64,000 bases of DNA. It comes from a virus. Position numbers and translations under genes: made by a program. A model generated the notes under the pieces. The model ran no database searches, had not been told where the DNA came from, and saw nothing but the letters and a program-made list of their open reading frames with translations. Where the stretch lies: positions 1 to 64,000 of IMG/VR virus record IMGVR_UViG_3300017605_000087, one strand, 5' to 3'. Numbering within the stretch: position 1 is the first letter of the stretch; each line of letters begins with the position of its first letter. This document shows, piece after piece, positions 2,393 through 41,520 of this stretch.

Positions 2393-3016
2393 ATGAACTT
2401 AAATCAGATACAACAAGACTATTTACTATTGATGCAAGAAATTGAGGATAACGATGGTGTCCTTGATGAATCAATGGAAGAAAGATTATATATTAACCAA
2501 AATGAACTCGAAGATAAACTAAAAGCATACGGATATGTTATTAGATTAAAGAATAATGAAATCAAGTTTATTGATGATGAAATAGCAAGACTTAGTACAT
2601 TTAAAGTTATTAAGAACAATCTAATTGAAAGACTTAAAAAATCAATACAAGGAGCATTATTGCTTTATGGTACTGATGGTAAGTCTGGAAATAAACAATT
2701 AAAATATGATACATTAAATATATATAATGTATATCACAAACCTACTATTATTGAAGATGAAGAAAACTTTAATAATATGGAATTTATCAACTTTACATTA
2801 AATGAAAAGTTGACTAAAGAAGAATCAGCTTTATTAGTAGAAACATTATTAAAGAAAAGATTAGGTATAACAGAATTATCACCTGATTTAATTGCTAATG
2901 GTGTATCAGTAAGTAAAGCAATTGATAAAACTAAAATTGGTAAAGCACTTAAAAATGGACAAGAAGTTGATGGTGCACATTTAGATGAAGAAGCAAACTA
3001 TATAGTAATTAAATAA
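2393..3016 (+). CDS. Gp157-family protein (siphovirus Gp157-like)
   Basis: The 207-residue protein has the build of the Siphovirus Gp157 family. An acidic N-terminal helix pair (QQDYLLLMQEIEDNDGVLDE) is followed by a long coiled coil with Lys/Glu heptads (about 40-95) and a short beta region (LNIYNVYHKPTIIE). The ending is typical of the family: DKTKIGKALKNGQEVDGAHL. Family members lie in phage recombination/replication clusters and are sometimes annotated as host-nuclease inhibitors; their biochemical role is not settled. Here it lies between ligase and uracil-DNA glycosylase, in line with that setting. The stop forms TAATG with the next start. Confidence 0.7.
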   Translation: MNLNQIQQDYLLLMQEIEDNDGVLDESMEERLYINQNELEDKLKAYGYVIRLKNNEIKFIDDEIARLSTFKVIKNNLIERLKKSIQGALLLYGTDGKSGNKQLKYDTLNIYNVYHKPTIIEDEENFNNMEFINFTLNEKLTKEESALLVETLLKKRLGITELSPDLIANGVSVSKAIDKTKIGKALKNGQEVDGAHLDEEANYIVIK

Positions 3017-3240
3017 TGGCAAAAGCAATAGTTTTAATAGTACCAGATGATGTTGTAGCAAATGGTTTTGCTTTGTATGCAGGACAACAGTTACTACAAG
3101 ATTTTAAACATCATAATAGAACTCATACAAATATGAGTAAAGTTGATGATTTAAAACATGCCGAAGTAGAATTAGATTGGGATAAATCTAAAGAAGAAAA
3201 AGGAGAAGTAGAAATGATTCACACAATAATTCTAAAATAA
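3016..3240 (+). CDS. Hypothetical protein, 74 aa
   Basis: An unrecognised small protein with a hydrophobic N-terminal strand (KAIVLIVPDDV) and a charged C-terminal half. Both ends form TAATG junctions with neighbours (1-nt overlaps), so it is translated within the ligase-to-glycosylase operon. Confidence 0.6.
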   Translation: MAKAIVLIVPDDVVANGFALYAGQQLLQDFKHHNRTHTNMSKVDDLKHAEVELDWDKSKEEKGEVEMIHTIILK

Positions 3241-3935
3241 TGGATTTATTTGATGAAGATAATACTTTAAGAGATGGATTTAAAAAAGAGTTAGGAGAAT
3301 GGTCTGATACCTTATATAACATAACTCTTGAAAGATTAGACTCTGTATTAGAGAAAGTAAAAGAAGAAAGAGCTAAATATACTGTATACCCTCCAGAAGA
3401 TGAAATGTTAAGAATATATAGAAAAATAGCTCCTAAAGATGTTAAAGTTGTAATAGTAGGACAAGACCCCTATTATAATGGAAATGCTAATGGTATAGCA
3501 TTTGCATGTAAATTACAACCAAGTCCTTCATTAATAAGTGTAGTAAAAGCTATGATGAAAGATGTAGGAACATTAGAAAAACAATATGATATGCAATTAC
3601 AACACTTATTAAAACAAGGTGTATTTCTACTTAATACAGTTTTAACTGTAAGAAAAGATGAACCAAATAGTCATAAATCATTAGGATGGCAAGAATTTAC
3701 TAAAGCTACAATTGGATTATTAAGTGATAAACATAATAGAATAGTATTTATGTTATGGGGGAGTGAAGCTATAAGTAATTTCAAAGGATTTATTAATGAA
3801 GAAAAACATTTAGTTCTAACTGGAGAACATCCTGTAAATGCAGCACGTAATAAGAAGGATTGGAAATGTAATCATTTTAGTGTAGCAAATGAATATCTAA
3901 GACAACATGGCAAAGAGCCTATCAAGTGGATTTAA
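3240..3935 (+). CDS. ung: Uracil-DNA glycosylase (family 1, Ung-type)
   Basis: The enzyme removes uracil from DNA by cutting the base-sugar bond. The water-activating motif GQDPYY is at residues 74-79 (D76 as general base). The uracil-binding region NGIAFAC (84-90) follows, then LLNTVLTV (130-137) and the leucine-loop motif GEHPVN, whose H197 matches the catalytic His of HPSPLS. The loop is HPVNAARN instead of HPSPLSAH, an atypical version. Length (231 aa) is normal. With ThyX, dNMP kinase and MazG-like genes close by, it belongs to a set that limits uracil in phage DNA. It starts at a TAATG junction. Confidence 0.93.
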   Translation: MDLFDEDNTLRDGFKKELGEWSDTLYNITLERLDSVLEKVKEERAKYTVYPPEDEMLRIYRKIAPKDVKVVIVGQDPYYNGNANGIAFACKLQPSPSLISVVKAMMKDVGTLEKQYDMQLQHLLKQGVFLLNTVLTVRKDEPNSHKSLGWQEFTKATIGLLSDKHNRIVFMLWGSEAISNFKGFINEEKHLVLTGEHPVNAARNKKDWKCNHFSVANEYLRQHGKEPIKWI

Positions 3936-3951
3936 TTCAAATATATAAACA

Positions 3952-4203
3952 ATGGAAAACAACGAAACAACAAAACCAGAGCCTTCAATTGGCGAAAAAA
4001 GAGTAAGAGTTGACTTTAACGTTAATAAAGACGAGAAAGTAGATGAAATTAAAAAGAAGTATGCTGAACTAATCAATTTGATTGATGGTTTAAAAGGAGA
4101 TGGAAGTCAAGTTTTATCAGCAGAAAAAGGAAGACTTATCAGTATTGCAATGACTGAAACCGAAAGTGCAGCTATGTGGGCTGTAAAAGCAGCAACTTGT
4201 TAG
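3952..4203 (+). CDS. Acb2/Tad1-hairpin-like small protein (candidate anti-CBASS nucleotide sponge)
   Basis: The 83-residue protein has a disordered charged N-terminus, then KRVRVDFNVNKDEKV, then two helices: KVDEIKKKYAELINLIDGL and GRLISIAMTETESAAMWAVKA. The last helix, with an A-x-T-x-x-E-x-A-A-M-W-A-V-K-A pattern, resembles the C-terminal helix of small phage proteins assigned to the Acb2/Tad1 hairpin family. Known Acb2 proteins form oligomers that bind cyclic di- and trinucleotides and so block CBASS signalling. I infer the family from the two-helix pattern only; this is recollection, not an alignment. It stands just after ung, with a stem-loop behind it. An alternative is an unrelated small helical protein. 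Confidence 0.5.
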   Translation: MENNETTKPEPSIGEKRVRVDFNVNKDEKVDEIKKKYAELINLIDGLKGDGSQVLSAEKGRLISIAMTETESAAMWAVKAATC

Positions 4204-8999: not shown

Positions 9000-9791
9000 A
9001 TGAAATTTGAAGAGCTAATTGAGGTGGGGGTTTATACCTCCCCTCTTGCTCTCTTATCAATAAAAGATGCAAAGGTAGTTGATAAGATTAATAATTACCT
9101 TCCATATAGTATTGGTATAGAGATAGAGTGTATGAAATCTCCCGAATTTAATTTGGAGAACTTTACATCTATTCCAGATATAATGGATGTGAAAATAGAT
9201 AGTGAAGAACAAAGGTTTAGAATACCTAATGGATTAGTAGGATTGATATGCCTATATAATATCTGTGAAAGATTGAAAATAAATTCAGAATTAAATCCTG
9301 AAAGTGGACATCATTATCATATTGATATGACACATACTTATGATATGTTATCAAATGAATTTATAAAAAGTAATGAAGATTGGATATTAAGAGAACTTGA
9401 TACTTGGGAATATGGAGGAACTTATAATAGAAGACAAATAGAATTTAATTGTTCTCACAATTGGATGCGCTTTCAATCAGATTTTAAGACTGCTGAAATA
9501 CGCATAGGTAACATGACATTTGATTATGATATAATTGTAAGAAGATTAATTCACGCATGTCAGATTATAAGAAAACTTAATTACAAACTTGTAAATCAAG
9601 AATTATTAGTATTTGGTAAACCTGATATTCATTTACTACAATCTCAAGTTATAAATGCTAAATATAAAAGTAAGATGGATTATCTTATGAAACAATTAGC
9701 ATCACTTGAAGAAGATAGTAATAATGAAGTACAATCAACAGAAGAACAAAGAAAACAAGTAATTAAAAATAGGGTAATTAAAATCAAATAA
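9000..9791 (+). CDS. Amidoligase-family enzyme (COOH-NH2 ligase, ATP-dependent)
   Basis: The 263-residue protein has the order of motifs of the Amidoligase_2 family. GIEIEC (39-44) carries a metal-binding Glu, GHHYHIDM (103-110) is the family His-rich motif, and AEIRIGNMTFD (165-175) matches the second strand pair with E166 and R168, followed by a helix (RRLIHACQIIRKL). The family has a glutamine-synthetase-like fold and joins a carboxylate to an amine. Proposed roles include peptide tagging and cell-wall or protein modification. The last 40 residues are a charged tail (EEDSNNEVQSTEEQ). The gene has its own 37-nt gap and so may start a sub-operon. The substrate is unknown. Confidence 0.7.
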   Translation: MKFEELIEVGVYTSPLALLSIKDAKVVDKINNYLPYSIGIEIECMKSPEFNLENFTSIPDIMDVKIDSEEQRFRIPNGLVGLICLYNICERLKINSELNPESGHHYHIDMTHTYDMLSNEFIKSNEDWILRELDTWEYGGTYNRRQIEFNCSHNWMRFQSDFKTAEIRIGNMTFDYDIIVRRLIHACQIIRKLNYKLVNQELLVFGKPDIHLLQSQVINAKYKSKMDYLMKQLASLEEDSNNEVQSTEEQRKQVIKNRVIKIK

Positions 9792-9793
9792 CT

Positions 9794-10024
9794 ATGACAA
9801 TTGAATGTCCAGATGATGTAATTAACATCATACAAGAAGAAATTAATAATAATGAAGAATTGTATATTAACGAAATTGATGAAATAAGAGCATTCGATGG
9901 ACTATACGATGATTGGAATAATCTAATAATTGAAATATTAGATTACCATAATAAACCTAGAGCATTGGCTCCCGTAATATTTGATAGAACTAAATCATTT
10001 TTAAAACCAAAAGAAGAATGTTAA
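9794..10024 (+). CDS. Hypothetical acidic protein, 76 aa
   Basis: Unrecognised. It is strongly acidic in its first half (IIQEEINNNEELYINEIDEI), has a WNNLIIEILDYH helix, and is basic at the end. It lies 2 nt after the amidoligase-like gene and overlaps the dNMP kinase by 7 nt. It might act with the amidoligase as substrate or partner, but only its position suggests this. Confidence 0.55.
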   Translation: MTIECPDDVINIIQEEINNNEELYINEIDEIRAFDGLYDDWNNLIIEILDYHNKPRALAPVIFDRTKSFLKPKEEC

Positions 10025-10494
10025 TAGGAATTAGTGGTAAAATTGGAAGTGGTAAAGATACTATTGGAAAGATCATACGATATTTAGCAGCGCCAGGAGC
10101 AAAAGCAGAAGATCACGATTGGTCAGAAGAATCTTTAAAAGATTTAGATAATGAAGAGGCTTGGAATCCTATGTATTTTAATACTCCTGAAGCATTTCAA
10201 ATTAAGAGATGGGCAGGAAAATTAAAAGAAACATGTAGTCTTTTAACTGGAATACCAGTTAAAGATTTTGAGAAACAAGAAGTAAAAGATCAAAGACTTC
10301 CAGAAATATGGGATATAGTAGAAGAATCTACTACTGGTAAATTATTAAGAATGTATGATGGAGAAGGAGAAGGACTTGATTATGCAAGAGAAATGGGATG
10401 GCAACCTGAATCATTTTTTAGTGGAATGGGAATACCAGAAGGGGAAGTAGGTGTTATTGAAACTACAAAATGGTTTAGAAAAAATCAGCTATAA
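10018..10494 (+). CDS. Deoxynucleoside monophosphate kinase, N-terminal part (upstream of frameshift)
   Basis: The protein opens with the P-loop GISGKIGSGKDT (4-15), as in T4 gp1-type dNMP kinases, which phosphorylate dNMPs to dNDPs. The frame ends early: after TKWFRK it runs into NQL and a TAA at 10492. The remaining half of the enzyme (TVRELLQKVGTE and beyond) is in the -1 frame, open from 10479. The two frames meet at six A (10479-10484), read as aga aaa aat in this frame. This heptamer, A AAA AAT, has the X XXY YYZ form of -1 slippery sites. Either a programmed frameshift makes a protein of about 296 residues, or an indel has broken the gene. Confidence 0.75.
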   Translation: MLIGISGKIGSGKDTIGKIIRYLAAPGAKAEDHDWSEESLKDLDNEEAWNPMYFNTPEAFQIKRWAGKLKETCSLLTGIPVKDFEKQEVKDQRLPEIWDIVEESTTGKLLRMYDGEGEGLDYAREMGWQPESFFSGMGIPEGEVGVIETTKWFRKNQL

Positions 10495-10907
10495 CAGTAA
10501 GAGAATTGCTTCAAAAAGTAGGAACAGAAGCAATGAGAAACAATATTCATCCTAATGTATGGGTAAATGCACTACTTAGTGATTATAAACCTAAAGCATT
10601 ATTTGAAAAATCAAACAATCCAGAAGATTGGAAAAATCCAAATTGGATAATAACTGATACACGTTTTCCTAATGAAGCAGATGCTATTAGAGCAAGAGGA
10701 GGAATAATTATAAGAACTACAAGACAATGGATTAATCCTAAAGATTGGGAAGCTCATACAGGACAAAAAGTGGAAAAAATATTAGAACATATATCAGAAA
10801 CAGCACTTGATAATTATAAATTTGATTATGTTATTAATAATAGTGGAACAATCGAACAATTAATAGCACAAGTAATACCAATATTAACTAAAGAAGGAAT
10901 AATATAA
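10479..10907 (+). CDS. Deoxynucleoside monophosphate kinase, C-terminal part (-1 frame)
   Basis: In the frame open from 10479 the product reads KKSAITVRELLQKVGTEAM, the sequence expected to continue the upstream kinase half. Then come substrate and core elements of the family: NPNWIITDTRFPNEADAI, GGIIIRTTR, a His-Ser/Thr region (HISETALDN) and VINNSGTIEQL near the end. No ATG precedes the conserved TVRELLQ motif; only a TTG at 10506 falls inside it. Independent translation would therefore cut conserved residues, which supports a frameshift link to the upstream half. The stop forms TAATG with the next gene. Confidence 0.75.
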   Translation, partial: KKSAITVRELLQKVGTEAMRNNIHPNVWVNALLSDYKPKALFEKSNNPEDWKNPNWIITDTRFPNEADAIRARGGIIIRTTRQWINPKDWEAHTGQKVEKILEHISETALDNYKFDYVINNSGTIEQLIAQVIPILTKEGII

Positions 10908-11272
10908 TGAAAAAGAACGCCCTGTATATAATCTTAACGATTATTACATCAATATTAGCTATATTAGCTAGTACATTAATGCTTATATTTACTCTTATAG
11001 TAAATGTAATAGAAGCTGTATATTTAGTATTTAAAGAATATTTTGAATCTCTTATATCACAGTTCTTAGGAGTAAAAGAAATGACTATTCTTAAAACTAA
11101 ACATGAAGAAAGTATAAAGACTCTTAAAGCGGTAGATGATTATTGTAGTCAAATGATACATGAATTATCTAAAGAAGATGTAAATAAAGAAACTGTTGAA
11201 CATATACAACAGCAATTAAATAACATGAAATATCAATTAAACGATTTAAAACCAAAAGATGATGGAAAATAG
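10907..11272 (+). CDS. Membrane-anchored coiled-coil protein, 121 aa
   Basis: Residues 5-40 are one long hydrophobic stretch (ALYIILTIITSILAILASTL, continuing LMLIFTLIVNVIEAVYLVF) that can span the membrane once or as a hairpin. A charged helical tail follows, predicted coiled coil (about 65-118, many K/E/Q and heptad Leu/Ile). No known family. It lies between the kinase and the GroES-like gene, with TAATG at the front and a 14-nt overlap at the back. A role at the host membrane (superinfection exclusion or lysis control) is possible but not shown. Confidence 0.6.
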   Translation: MKKNALYIILTIITSILAILASTLMLIFTLIVNVIEAVYLVFKEYFESLISQFLGVKEMTILKTKHEESIKTLKAVDDYCSQMIHELSKEDVNKETVEHIQQQLNNMKYQLNDLKPKDDGK

Positions 11273-11756
11273 TGAAGAAAAAGGTATATTATTAAGTAGT
11301 ACAAGATGTATTTATCCAGATGCTAAAGTTACAGCGGTAAATGGTACAGCTTTACTACTAAGACCAGCTATGAAAAAAACAGTTGGAGGTATAGTATTAT
11401 CTGCTGAAACAAAAGCGGAAGTTCAAAAAGACAAAGATGCTAAAACTGGACTAGAAGAACCAAATTGGTTAACAGTATTAGCTATTGATGAGTTCTCAAT
11501 GCCAGGAGTATCACCAGGGGATCAAGTAATCCTTGATGAAGGTGATGTAGCTCCTTGTAAAATAGGAGATTATTATTGTGTACTTGTTGGACTTCATATG
11601 GTAAGACTTGTTAAAAGAAAAACTGATGAAGAAATTGAAAGAGTAATTGGAGATGATAAAGAAGTTAAATCATTTATGGTAGATGCTACTAAACTATTTG
11701 ATTTAGATCAACTATCAGATGTTATGACTAACGTAAACATTAAAGGAGATAAATAA
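11259..11756 (+). CDS. GroES/T4 gp31-like co-chaperonin
   Basis: Residues 25-120 follow the GroES layout. TALLLRPAMKKTVGGIVLS (30-48) resembles the first strands and the mobile loop with its hydrophobic GGIVL tripeptide. WLTVLAIDE corresponds to the central strand, and SPGDQVILDEGDVAP (85-99) to the GDxVxF strand. IGDYYCVLVGLHMVRLV corresponds to the closing strands. A 45-residue acidic tail and a longer insertion after the mobile loop set it apart from host GroES. T4 gp31 replaces GroES so that GroEL can fold the capsid protein, and the same role is inferred here. The start at ATGATG overlaps the previous gene. Sequence identity to GroES is clearly low. Confidence 0.6.
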   Translation: MMENSEEKGILLSSTRCIYPDAKVTAVNGTALLLRPAMKKTVGGIVLSAETKAEVQKDKDAKTGLEEPNWLTVLAIDEFSMPGVSPGDQVILDEGDVAPCKIGDYYCVLVGLHMVRLVKRKTDEEIERVIGDDKEVKSFMVDATKLFDLDQLSDVMTNVNIKGDK

Positions 11757-35356: not shown

Positions 35357-38300
35357 CTATCTAAAGTTTTGCATGTAGTTAACTATACTGTCATGGAAGT
35401 AAAAATCTTTTTGGATATTATTGTCGTAAATATAGCGAACAATTACGAATTTTCCAAGTAAATTATCTTTTTTAAACCAAGTTTTTTGTGCAGCTATGTT
35501 AATAGTATTTACACTTCTATCTTCATTTATTATAGGGTTGTTCTTATTAATTACCATATCTCTAATCTCATTATAATTCCAGCTTCCTTCTATAAATCTA
35601 TTATTTCTTTGGAACCATAATAAGTCTGGTACAGCTATTATTCCAGTACATTGATCTGTATTATATAAACATATATGTGTAAGAGTTTCATTAAAGAACC
35701 TTGTTTCATTAACTTCTACTTCTGTAACCCATGTAACACTTTCTACTATTTTAGTAACTTCAGGAGATTCATTATGAATCATATCCCAATATGAAGGATA
35801 TACAGTTGCATCATAATATATTCCTTTTATTGTTTTAATGTTATGTTTAAATATTCTTCCTAATGTTGAAGTATTATTTATAGCATATATTCCTGATCTA
35901 TTATGAAATAAATGATTAGGGTAATAATCGTGGAATGATACCCAACCCCCTTGCCCTTGATTAATTTCTGGACTATATGATATAGTCCACTTTTTATACA
36001 CAAAATCTCCAACTAGAGCTTGTGGTCCACCTGGCTCTCCTACTATATGATTTTCTACTAAAGGTCTATATATAGGATTATCATCTTCATCAAACTCTTC
36101 TAATATTACTATATTACCATCTACTAAAAAAGCATCTCCTATTTGATCTTCATCTATATCTGGAGATAATATTCCATGATATATTACATCGTCATTAAGT
36201 CTTATATCATTTTTACTAATTATAACTCTATTGAATTGTTCGTCAAAAGCTGCTGTTAATCCAAACTCAGTAAAGGGATTATCTATATCTAATGTAGTAT
36301 TAGTATTAGCTCTCATCCAATTACGAACATTTAAGTTACTAATTTCTTTTAATGCTCCATCAAATATAAATATTTTTCCTTGTTGTCTATCTAAAAATAC
36401 ATATCCTAATTTACAAGTGAAACTTGCCCATTGAGATTGATTTCCTGCATACCCTTCTCTTGTAGGTAATACATTTTGTGGAGGTCTATCAAATACATCA
36501 CCTGTTCCTATATATACTTCTGTTATATCAGAAGATAATTTGTCTTTATTTAAAGCAGTATATAAACTATATTTCTGATGTATAATTAAAGTCTTATCAA
36601 GAGTTTCTAATTTCCATACTTCTCCTTTATCTTTTTCTCCTTCGTGATATTCATTAGCTCTGAATTTTCTCCAAGATTCACTTTTTTCTTCATCTTGAGT
36701 TACATCAGTTCTTGCTACTCTATATGGTAGTTTATCTATAAATCTATCATACGGACTCCATGAACCGGGAAACTTTAAATTCATTATTGATGAATAGCTA
36801 GGGTCATAATCTATATCTACACTCCATTTATTTGGAGCATTAAACCCTAAATTTTTCTTTCCACTTCCCATTAGTAAATGACTTGGAATCTGTGAAAAGT
36901 CATTACCTCTGTTTAATACATAATTGTAATTAGAATAACATGGAAATCTAAAATGTAATCCTAATGCTGTATTAATTATATGTGTATTCTCAAGAGCTTC
37001 ATCTCCATCTATATGTGTACAAACACTTAAATCATTCTCCCAATTAGTATTAGCTGGATAATAAGTAGTTCCAGCTTCACTATAAAAATTATGTTTAATT
37101 GAATACCCTGTAATAAATGTATCGAAATTAAATAATCCTCCTATTGGGCCATTTACTCCAGCATTTACTGGATGAATTAATTTACTTGCTAATGCTAAAT
37201 CTTGTTCATAAAAATTAGTATGAACATTTTTTATCATACTCATTATATTACCAACAGCAAAATAAAACAGATTTACTTTTACTTCATCATGGTCTGACCC
37301 TGGATAATTCAATTCATCTCCTTGATCGTTAGCATTATCAAAACCTCTTCTAATTCTATATCTTGAAAGTAAATCTGTACTTGTATTTTCAAATGTTGCT
37401 CTAATACATGCTTCTCTAGTATTATTAGATATAGGAACAGTAGCGGAATTATTCTCTGGAATATATTCAAATTTCTTTATTGCTCTATATGCAAGGTTAT
37501 CTGCTATCCAAGTTGTTCCAGTAGTATCAGGAACACCTGTTAATCCAGGCCCAGTAAGAACTGGTCCAGGAGGATTTCCAAGAGATACTGGAGAGTTTAC
37601 GTTAGTAGATATATATTCTCCTTTTATGTACCTTGCATTAACACTTGGTGTGTTATGTAATAAAGGTATATCATAAAGTCTTGCATGAGCATTACTAATT
37701 ACAGTTCCGGGAGTATAAAATCCATTCAAATCAGGCCCACTTAATGTAGTATCGTTACCATACATTGCCTCTCTATATATAGGACTTGTTCCTAAAACTG
37801 TACTATTATCTAATGTTTTAATTGCATAACTAAATACAATTCCTTGTATCTGGTCTTTTAAATATTGTGGTATTTCAATATTATGAAATCTTATCTTTAT
37901 AAACTTATTAAGGTTAGCAAAACTTGTTCCACCATACATTGTTTTCAATCCTGGCATTCTATGATGTCTAACCTTTTGTCCTCTTAAATCAATTCCTCCT
38001 GCAATAGCATTTCCATCATAATCTATTGTTCCATCATATTCATCTAAGTTAGGATATGTTTCATCTTCATTCTCCCAATATCCCGGATACTTACCACTGA
38101 CAGGATGATTTATATTTGCTGTATCTCTAGTATGAAATAGTTTTGCAGAATCAGCAACACCTAATGCTGCTTCATCAGCACCAAATTCAGCAGGTTCAGC
38201 AGCAACAGCATTTGTTACAGTTTCATCTTCATCAAAAGCAGTTGCTCCAATAGTTATTTGTTGAACTTCTCTTCCTGGTATATGCATACCTTTTCCAATA

Positions 38301-39553
38301 GTTCCATCTTTATATACTGCGTGAGCATAAAAAGCATATACTTCCCAAGGTTTTAATGTTCTTACTCTTAAACAATTCCCCGGATTAGCATACCATTCGT
38401 ATCTTTTATATATACTTTGGAATATATTAGGAGGTAGTGCATTTGCTTGTGTTAAATCTTCTATACTTTCTGTAAACCAAGATACTGAAATATTATTAGC
38501 ATACTTCTGAAATCTTAATTCTTCTTGAGTTTTTAAATTACCAGCACAAAGTCTTTTATTATTATATGTTCCAGTTTTAAATCTAGTATAGTTTACACTA
38601 TCAATTAATATTTCATCAGGAGTTAAATCTCCTTTAAATTTTCCAGTCCATACAAAATTGATTTGTGTTCCAGTTATTTCAAACTTATCAATATATATTG
38701 CTGTTTTTACTTTATTTACTTCCTTAATTGCAGCAAGTTTAATATACTTAAATCTAGTATCAATATTATCAATTGTAATATCTATTGATACTCCACTATT
38801 TCCATCTTGTTTACTTTCTTGATAAAGATTACTTACTTTAAAATCATTACCATTGTCTGTATTTAATATAAAAGAATCATGGTGATACTTAGCAATAGGA
38901 AATGGATGGGATGGTAGCATCCAGTTTAATTGATCGTCTTCACTTACCTCATAAGATGTTACTAAATAATATACTCCTGGGTCTATATCTCCACCTGGTT
39001 TAATATTCCCAATGGCATAGTTTGGAATATTCATATCAGGATATAGTAACATTAAGTTTTGTGCGTTACTAGATGTAAACTCTTTTGAACCATTTACAGG
39101 AAATGGTAAATTAGTTAGATTTAATAATCTTGGTCTATTGCTATTTGTCTTAGTTCCATCCCAAAATGATATGATTAAATCTCCTTTCCAATTATATTTG
39201 AATATACCTTCTATTGGACAATCCCATTGAAATTGTAATAATTGTAATCCAACAGTATCTTTACAAATTGTTGTATAAATACCTAATTCAAAATATCCTA
39301 TTTCACATATAGAGCCGTTTCTTGAAAATACTACTGTTCCTAAGTTTGTAGGAATAGTTCCAAGTATCTTTCCATTAACTTGTTTTTCTAATTGTGCTCC
39401 ATCTTCATTAGCAATTGATCTAAAACCTTTAGTAACAAGAATGTTTTTAGCCCAAGCCCATCCTTGTCCTTTAAGGTTTCTAGTATCTAACGAAAGTCCT
39501 TGAATATTCAGCACCTTAATATCTATTAAATGTTTTATCTTCGTATGTATCAA
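35357..39553 (-). CDS. Large tail-barrel (muzzle-like) protein, 1398 aa
   Basis: The N-terminal segment GLSLDTRNLKGQGWAWAKNILV resembles the start of crAss-like and P22 gp10/T7 gp12-type tail-tube proteins; the key residues are the DT and the WAKN repeat. The body is beta-rich with many aromatic turns, consistent with a large barrel. In crAss001 a protein of similar length and position forms the tail muzzle. It is the largest tail gene and lies right after the ring/connector genes. The listed ATG overlaps the previous gene by 38 nt; a GTG at 39514 just after that stop is a possible true start. Name by position and size; fold not verified. Confidence 0.7.
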   Translation of the reverse strand: MIHTKIKHLIDIKVLNIQGLSLDTRNLKGQGWAWAKNILVTKGFRSIANEDGAQLEKQVNGKILGTIPTNLGTVVFSRNGSICEIGYFELGIYTTICKDTVGLQLLQFQWDCPIEGIFKYNWKGDLIISFWDGTKTNSNRPRLLNLTNLPFPVNGSKEFTSSNAQNLMLLYPDMNIPNYAIGNIKPGGDIDPGVYYLVTSYEVSEDDQLNWMLPSHPFPIAKYHHDSFILNTDNGNDFKVSNLYQESKQDGNSGVSIDITIDNIDTRFKYIKLAAIKEVNKVKTAIYIDKFEITGTQINFVWTGKFKGDLTPDEILIDSVNYTRFKTGTYNNKRLCAGNLKTQEELRFQKYANNISVSWFTESIEDLTQANALPPNIFQSIYKRYEWYANPGNCLRVRTLKPWEVYAFYAHAVYKDGTIGKGMHIPGREVQQITIGATAFDEDETVTNAVAAEPAEFGADEAALGVADSAKLFHTRDTANINHPVSGKYPGYWENEDETYPNLDEYDGTIDYDGNAIAGGIDLRGQKVRHHRMPGLKTMYGGTSFANLNKFIKIRFHNIEIPQYLKDQIQGIVFSYAIKTLDNSTVLGTSPIYREAMYGNDTTLSGPDLNGFYTPGTVISNAHARLYDIPLLHNTPSVNARYIKGEYISTNVNSPVSLGNPPGPVLTGPGLTGVPDTTGTTWIADNLAYRAIKKFEYIPENNSATVPISNNTREACIRATFENTSTDLLSRYRIRRGFDNANDQGDELNYPGSDHDEVKVNLFYFAVGNIMSMIKNVHTNFYEQDLALASKLIHPVNAGVNGPIGGLFNFDTFITGYSIKHNFYSEAGTTYYPANTNWENDLSVCTHIDGDEALENTHIINTALGLHFRFPCYSNYNYVLNRGNDFSQIPSHLLMGSGKKNLGFNAPNKWSVDIDYDPSYSSIMNLKFPGSWSPYDRFIDKLPYRVARTDVTQDEEKSESWRKFRANEYHEGEKDKGEVWKLETLDKTLIIHQKYSLYTALNKDKLSSDITEVYIGTGDVFDRPPQNVLPTREGYAGNQSQWASFTCKLGYVFLDRQQGKIFIFDGALKEISNLNVRNWMRANTNTTLDIDNPFTEFGLTAAFDEQFNRVIISKNDIRLNDDVIYHGILSPDIDEDQIGDAFLVDGNIVILEEFDEDDNPIYRPLVENHIVGEPGGPQALVGDFVYKKWTISYSPEINQGQGGWVSFHDYYPNHLFHNRSGIYAINNTSTLGRIFKHNIKTIKGIYYDATVYPSYWDMIHNESPEVTKIVESVTWVTEVEVNETRFFNETLTHICLYNTDQCTGIIAVPDLLWFQRNNRFIEGSWNYNEIRDMVINKNNPIINEDRSVNTINIAAQKTWFKKDNLLGKFVIVRYIYDNNIQKDFYFHDSIVNYMQNFR

Positions 39554-40166
39554 ATAATAACATAGAAGAATTTTGTCTTATTTCTTCCATCTCTTCAGGA
39601 GTTGGAAAACTTAAACTATTTTTACATCTTGCCAACCACTTTTCAGCTCTTGCTTCACAATCTTCATATTTGAATACTGGATGGCTTACACCACCAGCTA
39701 ATATAATTGACATACAATACCATTGACAAGCTATTTTAAACTTATCATTGTCTGGAACCATTAGTTTATTATTTTTATCTAATGGTATTTTATAGTAATA
39801 TACAGTTAAACAACCTTCTTTAAAAGGAGTTGTAATTGTATTCATATTAAAACTATAATTTCCTATATTTTTATCACATATTTGTAGATCATTATTAGCA
39901 TGTGCTACATTTGAACTCAAATCAATTTTATATCCATTATATGCAATTGCTCTAAGAAATTTTAAATCACATGGAAATTCACCTTGATAATTCTTAATTT
40001 TAATCTTTTTAAATACTTTGTTATATATACGACCTACACCTACAAGTCCTATAAAATCAGCAATATCTTCATCTATTTCTCCTAACCAATCGTTAGAATT
40101 TAGTTTGAAGATTCTAGCTATTCTTGCAGCTATTATGTCGGATGATATAAATAAATACCTACTCAT
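39516..40166 (-). CDS. Head-tail connector / tail ring protein, 216 aa
   Basis: The layout recalls T7 gp11 and P22 gp4-type adaptors: a helical N-terminus with DWLGEIDEDIADFIGLVG, then the GEFPCDLKFLRAIAYNG strand pair, then a long helix (FKIACQWYCMSIILAG). Such proteins form a ring below the portal. It is joined to the previous gene by TAATG and stands directly before the muzzle-like gene. Known crAss-like virions stack several rings here; which ring this is cannot be told from sequence alone. Confidence 0.65.
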   Translation of the reverse strand: MSRYLFISSDIIAARIARIFKLNSNDWLGEIDEDIADFIGLVGVGRIYNKVFKKIKIKNYQGEFPCDLKFLRAIAYNGYKIDLSSNVAHANNDLQICDKNIGNYSFNMNTITTPFKEGCLTVYYYKIPLDKNNKLMVPDNDKFKIACQWYCMSIILAGGVSHPVFKYEDCEARAEKWLARCKNSLSFPTPEEMEEIRQNSSMLLFDTYEDKTFNRY

Positions 40167-40882
40167 TATCTTATAAAGTTAATCATTACATCAGGATTTC
40201 TTCTTAGCATTGCATATATTCTACCAACAAATGTATCTTTACTTGCTCTACATGTTGGTACAAATAAAAACTTTTCCTTTATTGATTTCTTTATTTTTAT
40301 ACTTTTTGGACTCCAATAAACTTGTGGTCTATATGGGTCTGTGTAGAATACAATCCAATCATGTCCATTAGGACATTCAGGACATTTAGGAATTAATCCT
40401 CTTTCTAATAATTCATATCTGTTTTTTCCAGATTCAACAGGATTAGCTCTTCCTTTATATGTTTTTCTTTTTACTCTTTTTATGTATAACTTGCCGAACT
40501 TGAACATATTTAATGTATGTCCTTCAATCATATAATCAATAGCTTTATCATTAAATCTTTTAATTATAAATGCAAGTTCTTTAAATTCTTTTATTCCTTC
40601 TTGTTCTTCTAATTTCTTCTTTATTACATTTACTTCATTATAAGTCTTAACGTACAAATCAAGTTTAGACAATATAACTCTTTTGTCTTTACTATCCCCC
40701 CAATATTCAATATCTCTATCGCTTATTCTTTCTCGTATATTTATTAATTCAATATCAGCAAATGTTTTCAGTAAATTTTCTTTACTCTGAAGGTTTTCTA
40801 AATCTACCTTCTTATTTTCATTTACTTTACTCTTATATACTTCAAATATTTCTTTAAGTCCGTTAATCTTTAGTTCACTCAT
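40166..40882 (-). CDS. Conserved tail/neck protein, 238 aa
   Basis: No enzyme motif. The N-terminal half is charged coiled coil. The C-terminal half carries FGKLYIKRVKRK, the small Cys cluster PKCPECPNGHDW, and VYWSPKSIKIKKS, a basic beta region. The IKRVKRK...S pattern reminds me of a conserved crAss-like structural protein next to the ring genes. It overlaps both neighbours by a few bases (4 nt at its start). Confidence 0.55.
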   Translation of the reverse strand: MSELKINGLKEIFEVYKSKVNENKKVDLENLQSKENLLKTFADIELINIRERISDRDIEYWGDSKDKRVILSKLDLYVKTYNEVNVIKKKLEEQEGIKEFKELAFIIKRFNDKAIDYMIEGHTLNMFKFGKLYIKRVKRKTYKGRANPVESGKNRYELLERGLIPKCPECPNGHDWIVFYTDPYRPQVYWSPKSIKIKKSIKEKFLFVPTCRASKDTFVGRIYAMLRRNPDVMINFIR

Positions 40883-41520
40883 TCTTCTTTATTCTCAAGT
40901 TTAGCTTCTATTTCATCTGGTTTCATTAATTGAAATTCACTACTTAAAATACCATTAACAATAGTTCTTAATAAATCAGCAGGAATTGGATAAGGTTTAT
41001 CATCATTCATACAATCATCAACACATGTATTAGCATCATAAGGATTAACTAATAAAGATTCTGCTTCTACAAATTTAATTTTTGTACTACCTCCTCCTAC
41101 AACATAACCAAAGTTATTTCTTTCATACCAACGTATAATATCTTTAGTTACTCTATTATGTTTAGTCTTTTTTACTACTTCAAAATCTGTATAAGTAAAA
41201 TCAATTTCTCTACCAACACTTCCAAAGAACTTAAATCTTGTGCCACCAGTTCTTATAGTTTCTGGTAATATTCTTTCAGTTCTTCTTACTGGACAATCTA
41301 AACTTATATAACAAGTATCACCTTTATCAACTAATATTAAAGGGATAATTAATGTTTGATAAAATTGTCTATCAACATAGTTTCTTTGTAATGATTGTTT
41401 AAGAAACTCTGCCCTATAATAATTAACTGTAAAACGTACTTGATCTTTGAACACTTCATTGAAATGTTCTCCACGTATTGCAGCTATATGATCTGCTATT
41501 TTATTTATTGTATTATGCAA
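40879..41520 (-). CDS. Conserved neck/tail ring-type protein, 213 aa
   Basis: A helical N-terminus (ADHIAAIRGEHFNEVFKDQV...YYRAEFLKQSLQRN) is followed by a beta domain (TLIIPLILVDKGDTCYISLDCPV...FKFFGSVGREIDFTY) and a second helical end. This helix-beta-helix build and its place at the head of the three-gene connector group suggest a ring protein of the tail barrel. It lies 3 nt after the fibre gene. No closer family assignment is possible from the sequence alone. Confidence 0.55.
   Translation of the reverse strand: MHNTINKIADHIAAIRGEHFNEVFKDQVRFTVNYYRAEFLKQSLQRNYVDRQFYQTLIIPLILVDKGDTCYISLDCPVRRTERILPETIRTGGTRFKFFGSVGREIDFTYTDFEVVKKTKHNRVTKDIIRWYERNNFGYVVGGGSTKIKFVEAESLLVNPYDANTCVDDCMNDDKPYPIPADLLRTIVNGILSSEFQLMKPDEIEAKLENKEE

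Follow-up and report, generated by a model that had tools for sequence, protein, structure and literature searches.

Known Recoding Systems and the dNMP Kinase Family

Programmed −1 frameshifting in bacteria, of the type found in dnaX and in insertion sequences, combines an A AAA AAG heptamer with a Shine–Dalgarno element and a stem. For −1 frameshifting, the stimulatory Shine–Dalgarno distance is 9–14 nt upstream (PMC5009743). In gene 60 of bacteriophage T4, take-off and landing occur on matched Gly codons, with a stop codon occupying the A site; the nascent peptide is Lys-rich, and a 5′ stem-loop, whose pairing is completed behind the ribosome, exerts a pull on the mRNA (PMC5009743). Such bypass cases are few, and no natural in-frame stop-hop is known (PMC5009743).

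We compared with these systems a kinase gene of the window, i.e., the whole stretch of 64,000 nt analysed here, which belongs to a virus record of 87,172 b. Over its C-terminal half, the window's kinase is of the same family as the dNMP kinase of T4 gene 1 (PDB 1DEK/1DEL; PF21448, phrog_139), and its P-loop is N-terminal; unlike T4 gene 1 and the PF21448/phrog_139 family, it is split between two frames. Like the dnaX/insertion-sequence type, the locus has an A-rich heptamer in the correct register; unlike that type, it has AAT in place of AAG, and it has no Shine–Dalgarno-like stimulator, no well-placed downstream stem and no conservation.

One Kinase Gene Divided between Two Frames

In the record, one dNMP kinase gene of the T4 gp1 type is divided between two frames, since both halves match the same family and the match is stronger when they are joined. 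The N-terminal part (10018..10494, + strand, zero frame) appears in the ORF list as a 158-aa product that matches phrog_139 (E 9.6e-7) and whose P-loop, GKIGSGKDT, is intact and without insert; it starts at ATG 10018 and ends at TAA 10492–10494, before which it reads ..W F R K N Q L. The C-terminal part (10479..10907, + strand) lies in the −1 frame and matches both PF21448 (E 5.9e-13) and phrog_139 (E 3.6e-33). This frame is closed upstream by TAG 10476–10478, opens at 10479, where it begins KKSAITVRELLQKVGTEA, stays open through 10907 and keeps the conserved motifs TVRELLQKVGTE and WIITDTRFPNEA. With both frames read jointly, phrog_139 is matched over residues 1–286 (E 2.5e-42), PF21448 at 54 bits against a curated cut-off of 27.1 (E 2e-14) and the T4 dNMP kinase 1DEK at E 4.6e-6; the P-loop and the invariant R, Q, GT, W, DxRF and HxSE residues are all present when both frames are counted. 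The single continuous reading frame expected of a dNMP kinase (PF21448/phrog_139) is broken at 10479–10494.

Direct reading shows A AAA AAT at the joint (10479..10485, + strand), the six A occupying 10479–10484 and the T 10485, and this heptamer falls within the 13 nt (10479–10491) where the two frames overlap. A first-pass annotation had proposed that a dNMP kinase is split at this very heptamer, which both the direct reading and the profile matches confirm; it had added that the downstream half has no ATG before its conserved motif, and this also holds, as the first listed start is TTG 10506 and the first ATG comes at 10534, each within the TxRxLLQ motif or past it. Because the downstream half is undecayed, with 142 codons open and all family motifs kept, the event that divided the gene is recent, artificial or programmed.

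The Phage Record and the Soundness of Its Sequence

The window has a GC content of 30%, and 97% of it is ORF. Judged by its marker genes, the host of the kinase gene is a divergent crAss-like phage: membership in the Crassvirales is indicated by a crAss-type MCP (38% identical to known Crassvirales), a portal, a crAss-type terminase TerL (28% identical) and a minus-strand ORF of 5642 aa, of the giant RNA polymerase type, which bears a DFDID motif. Both portal and MCP phrogs were matched in the phage record.

Codon usage was scanned along all 87 kb, which revealed no second gene split between frames; the kinase alone stood out. As the scan shows no other frame-divided gene, the record is not generally error-ridden, and one indel per 87 kb is compatible with an assembly error and with a fresh mutation alike. 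Runs of A are frequent in the 60 kb of coding sequence of the window (62 A6, 11 A7 and 2 A9, i.e., 75 of six or more), and the other coding runs of A6 to A9, both A9 included, look undisturbed. We also considered a suppressor tRNA or another recoding of the stop, which we rejected, as no tRNA was found in the window and the break is a change of frame, not merely a stop; an intron or a known RNA element at the kinase was likewise rejected, Rfam giving no match at 9700–11300.

Two unusual starts were seen on the minus strand of the window. At 39516–39577, ORF 35357–39553 (1398 aa) overlaps the end of ORF 39516–40166, which lies in a different frame, and its first 175 codons include no ATG; it was tried as a further broken gene and rejected, since a GTG stands one base past the upstream TAA, and it is likely an ordinary coupled GTG start. 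At 40879–41520, a structural protein ORF (phrog_9863) appears to start with TTG: its stop-to-stop frame opens at a TTG codon, with no ATG for 170 codons.

Place of the Joint among Kinase Relatives

We collected about 220 kinase loci by family-wide searches (29–54% identical) and checked them for frame continuity. None is broken at the place of the window's break, the same locus in relatives being a check that the first-pass annotation had named; in the relatives a single frame spans the site, also in the nearest crAss-like kinases (L258, beside an rIIA gene, L231 and L319–L324), which are intact. Compared with most relatives, the window's kinase has about 50 additional residues of variable linker ahead of the TxRxLLQ motif, and the joint sits in this linker, directly before the motif. 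Because the linker varies in length and sequence, no slippery site is conserved there; the earlier statement that both halves are well conserved stands for the two halves, but not for the joint. Our searches found no relative closer than about 45% identity, and among the records that they covered no close relative was found either in IMG/VR with the kinase, the gene at 9000–9791 and the rIIA-like gene, or in phages by distant blastn.

The exceptions to one-frame reading, namely L057 and three kinases interrupted in the P-loop (see below), all have their break elsewhere in the gene. In L057, the frame changes near the kinase C-terminus (L057:3576–3594), without homopolymer or evident signal; an unexplained frame break in about one of 220 metagenomic copies suggests how often such breaks occur as background.

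Two further loci deserve a comment of their own. The 72-kb contig of L258 (RXKF01000051.1) has been deposited as part of a Rickettsiales MAG. It belongs to a crAss-like phage (MCP, E 1.5e-151) in which rIIA and an intact dNMP kinase are neighbours, and it is probably a mis-binned phage contig. In L259:3802–3921 (CALMTA010000148.1), the dNMP kinase frame is open and the P-loop reads GKISSERDT instead of GKIGSGKDT, so that this kinase is possibly an inactivated copy.

Signals around the A6 Tract

The heptamer has the X XXY YYZ form, in frame, inside the overlap of both frames; A_AAA_AAT also occurs in frame 14 times in the 60 kb of the window's coding sequence. By the folding of stems, no stable one was found 5–9 nt downstream. 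The nearest is an 8-bp stem, ATTGCTTC/GAAGCAAT, with a 14-nt loop (10505..10534, + strand, −8.1 kcal/mol, z −0.4), which begins 19 nt past the heptamer and which we judged incidental: 66 of 200 shuffles fold as well, one of its arms coincides with the codons of conserved residues and the arms are lost in L178. The 130-nt downstream stretch as a whole has z −1.6. This stem was rejected as a stimulator on its z-score, its spacing and its unconserved arms, and a search for a stem after 10490, also suggested at the first pass, yielded only this chance-level structure. No Shine–Dalgarno-like stimulator was seen by eye 9–14 nt upstream, where 10462–10478 is ACTACAAAATGGTTTAG-like and without AGGAG.

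Upstream, a stem of 12+4 bp is predicted (10406..10478, + strand, −19.1, z −3.0), the 3′ arm of which abuts the A run. It looked promising at z −3.0; it was dropped as a signal and counts for little, as it depends on which 81-nt segment is folded (z −0.7 when the segment is shifted 3 nt upstream), and 3.6% of nearby 81-nt segments also reach z −3. Its energy is among the best ~5–8% of the region (percentile about 5.5–8%).

A Candidate Stop-Hop in Three Other Kinases

The kinases of L063, L178 and L254 all have an insert of 5–6 nt that contains a stop codon, and in all of them it separates the Gly and Lys codons of the P-loop. The sites read GGC TAA GGA AAA GAC in L063 (IMGVR_UViG_3300024343_000153, 2965–3045), GGT TAA GT AAA GAT in L178 (IMGVR_UViG_3300049489_000842, 3930–4010) and GGT TAG GT AAA GAC in L254 (IMGVR_UViG_3300009149_000024, 3942–4020); the landing triplets are GGA in L063, GGT in L254 and, imperfectly, AGT in L178. 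These kinases are mutually only 34–43% identical, and their number is a lower bound (at least three). A two-segment hairpin precedes each insert, its 3′ arm ending at the Gly codon or at most 2 nt from it, with energies of −28.1, −23.6 and −22.0 kcal/mol (z −7.5, −3.7 and −4.5) in L063, L178 and L254; the same 66 nt in 130 AT-rich uninterrupted kinases have a median of −6.1 and a minimum of −16.2. The association of hairpin and interruption has p 3e-6, with loci treated as independent. The arms are unlike in sequence and the pairing is kept, though the codons of GKIGAG, GRMGSG and GRIGSG are constrained. Each of the three has a Lys/Asn-rich N-terminal extension, and when the codon usage of each of the three phage records was scanned, the kinase came out as an interrupted gene every time, beside a few weak candidates.

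Like T4 gene 60 and the synthetic stop-hops, these sites have a Gly take-off codon with the stop next to it and a Gly or near-Gly landing; as far as sequence alone tells, they also share with these systems an upstream two-part stem-loop and a Lys-rich N-terminal peptide. They differ from gene 60 in their gap (5–6 nt versus 50) and in residing in a dNMP kinase gene, at the Gly|Lys site of the P-loop. We regard them as candidates: the three kinases may carry a natural short signal for ribosomal bypass or stop-hop of the gene 60 type. Since the window's P-loop is intact without insert and its break lies elsewhere, this element does not explain the break in the window.

Origin of the Split

The reading that we prefer, with a probability of about 0.76, is that a previously intact kinase gene either underwent a frameshift mutation recently or carries an error of sequence or assembly. 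We infer that an indel caused the split: a small one, in the A6 tract or adjoining it, would interrupt a kinase gene that relatives keep intact, and it would be due either to replication slippage that took place spontaneously and recently in the phage population or to a base error in the sequence. Translated as written, the gene would give a 158-aa P-loop fragment without the TxRxLLQ..GTE and DxRFxNE segments, presumably inactive. The intact relatives, the variable linker at the joint, the commonness of the heptamer, the chance-level structure, the lack of an Rfam match, the soundness of all other genes in the frame scan and the undecayed C-terminal half all argue for a recent break or error. 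Against it, the undisturbed long A runs elsewhere imply that homopolymers are not a general weakness of the record, the heptamer falls exactly in a frame overlap of a mere 13 nt, and the site's own lineage is unrepresented among relatives of such limited identity.

A programmed −1 frameshift on A AAA AAT, by which a fraction of the ribosomes would make the full kinase and the rest the 158-aa fragment, is in our opinion unlikely. The canonical heptamer does have the proper register and falls precisely within the overlap, ahead of an undamaged C-terminal half and with the upstream stem abutting it; but such a shift is absent from every relative surveyed, the downstream stem stands 19 nt off and has the z-score of a chance structure, no Shine–Dalgarno-like element lies at the stimulatory distance (PMC5009743), equal heptamers stand in frame in other genes without effect, and a truncated P-loop product has no evident benefit. 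The first-pass wording, “programmed −1 frameshift or recent break”, therefore survives in part: it names the gene correctly, it is right about the break and where it lies, and a recent break (or error) fits all the evidence, whereas only the heptamer and the overlap of the frames speak for programming. We consider it highly improbable that the halves are made as separate polypeptides, through reinitiation at TTG 10506, and then reassemble. This TTG is 12 nt past the stop, and the phage appears to start on TTG or GTG beside upstream stops elsewhere (at 41520 and just after 39516, minus strand); however, a start at 10506 would exclude the Arg of TxRxLLQ, a residue that never varies in alignments A1 and A3, neither a Shine–Dalgarno nor an ATG is nearby, and no relative is divided at this place. 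We give the least credit of all to a forward hop or slide of the ribosome driven by the stem at 10406–10478, as a variant of the P-loop element of the three interrupted kinases. It would make use of the adjoining 3′ arm (z −3.0) and of the AAA codon at 10480, which has an identical AAA two bases on, and stop-plus-hairpin interruptions do exist in these three relatives of the same gene family; the P-loop cases, however, occupy a different place in the gene, and in the window no stop directly follows the take-off codon, no strong GC-rich stem is present, and the energy of the stem is unexceptional for the region.

Implications

Both ORFs should be annotated together as one broken dNMP kinase rather than as separate proteins or an established case of frameshifting, and a functional frameshift should not be claimed from the window sequence. 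We see very little chance that translational recoding repeatedly targets the dNMP kinase in this group of phages, by a hairpin-driven stop-hop in the P-loop of three relatives and by another shift at the A6 tract of the window; if it were, the output of the kinase would be gated at translation. As for the three interrupted relatives, the candidate stop-hop makes the question of a natural in-frame stop-hop directly testable with a small reporter construct.
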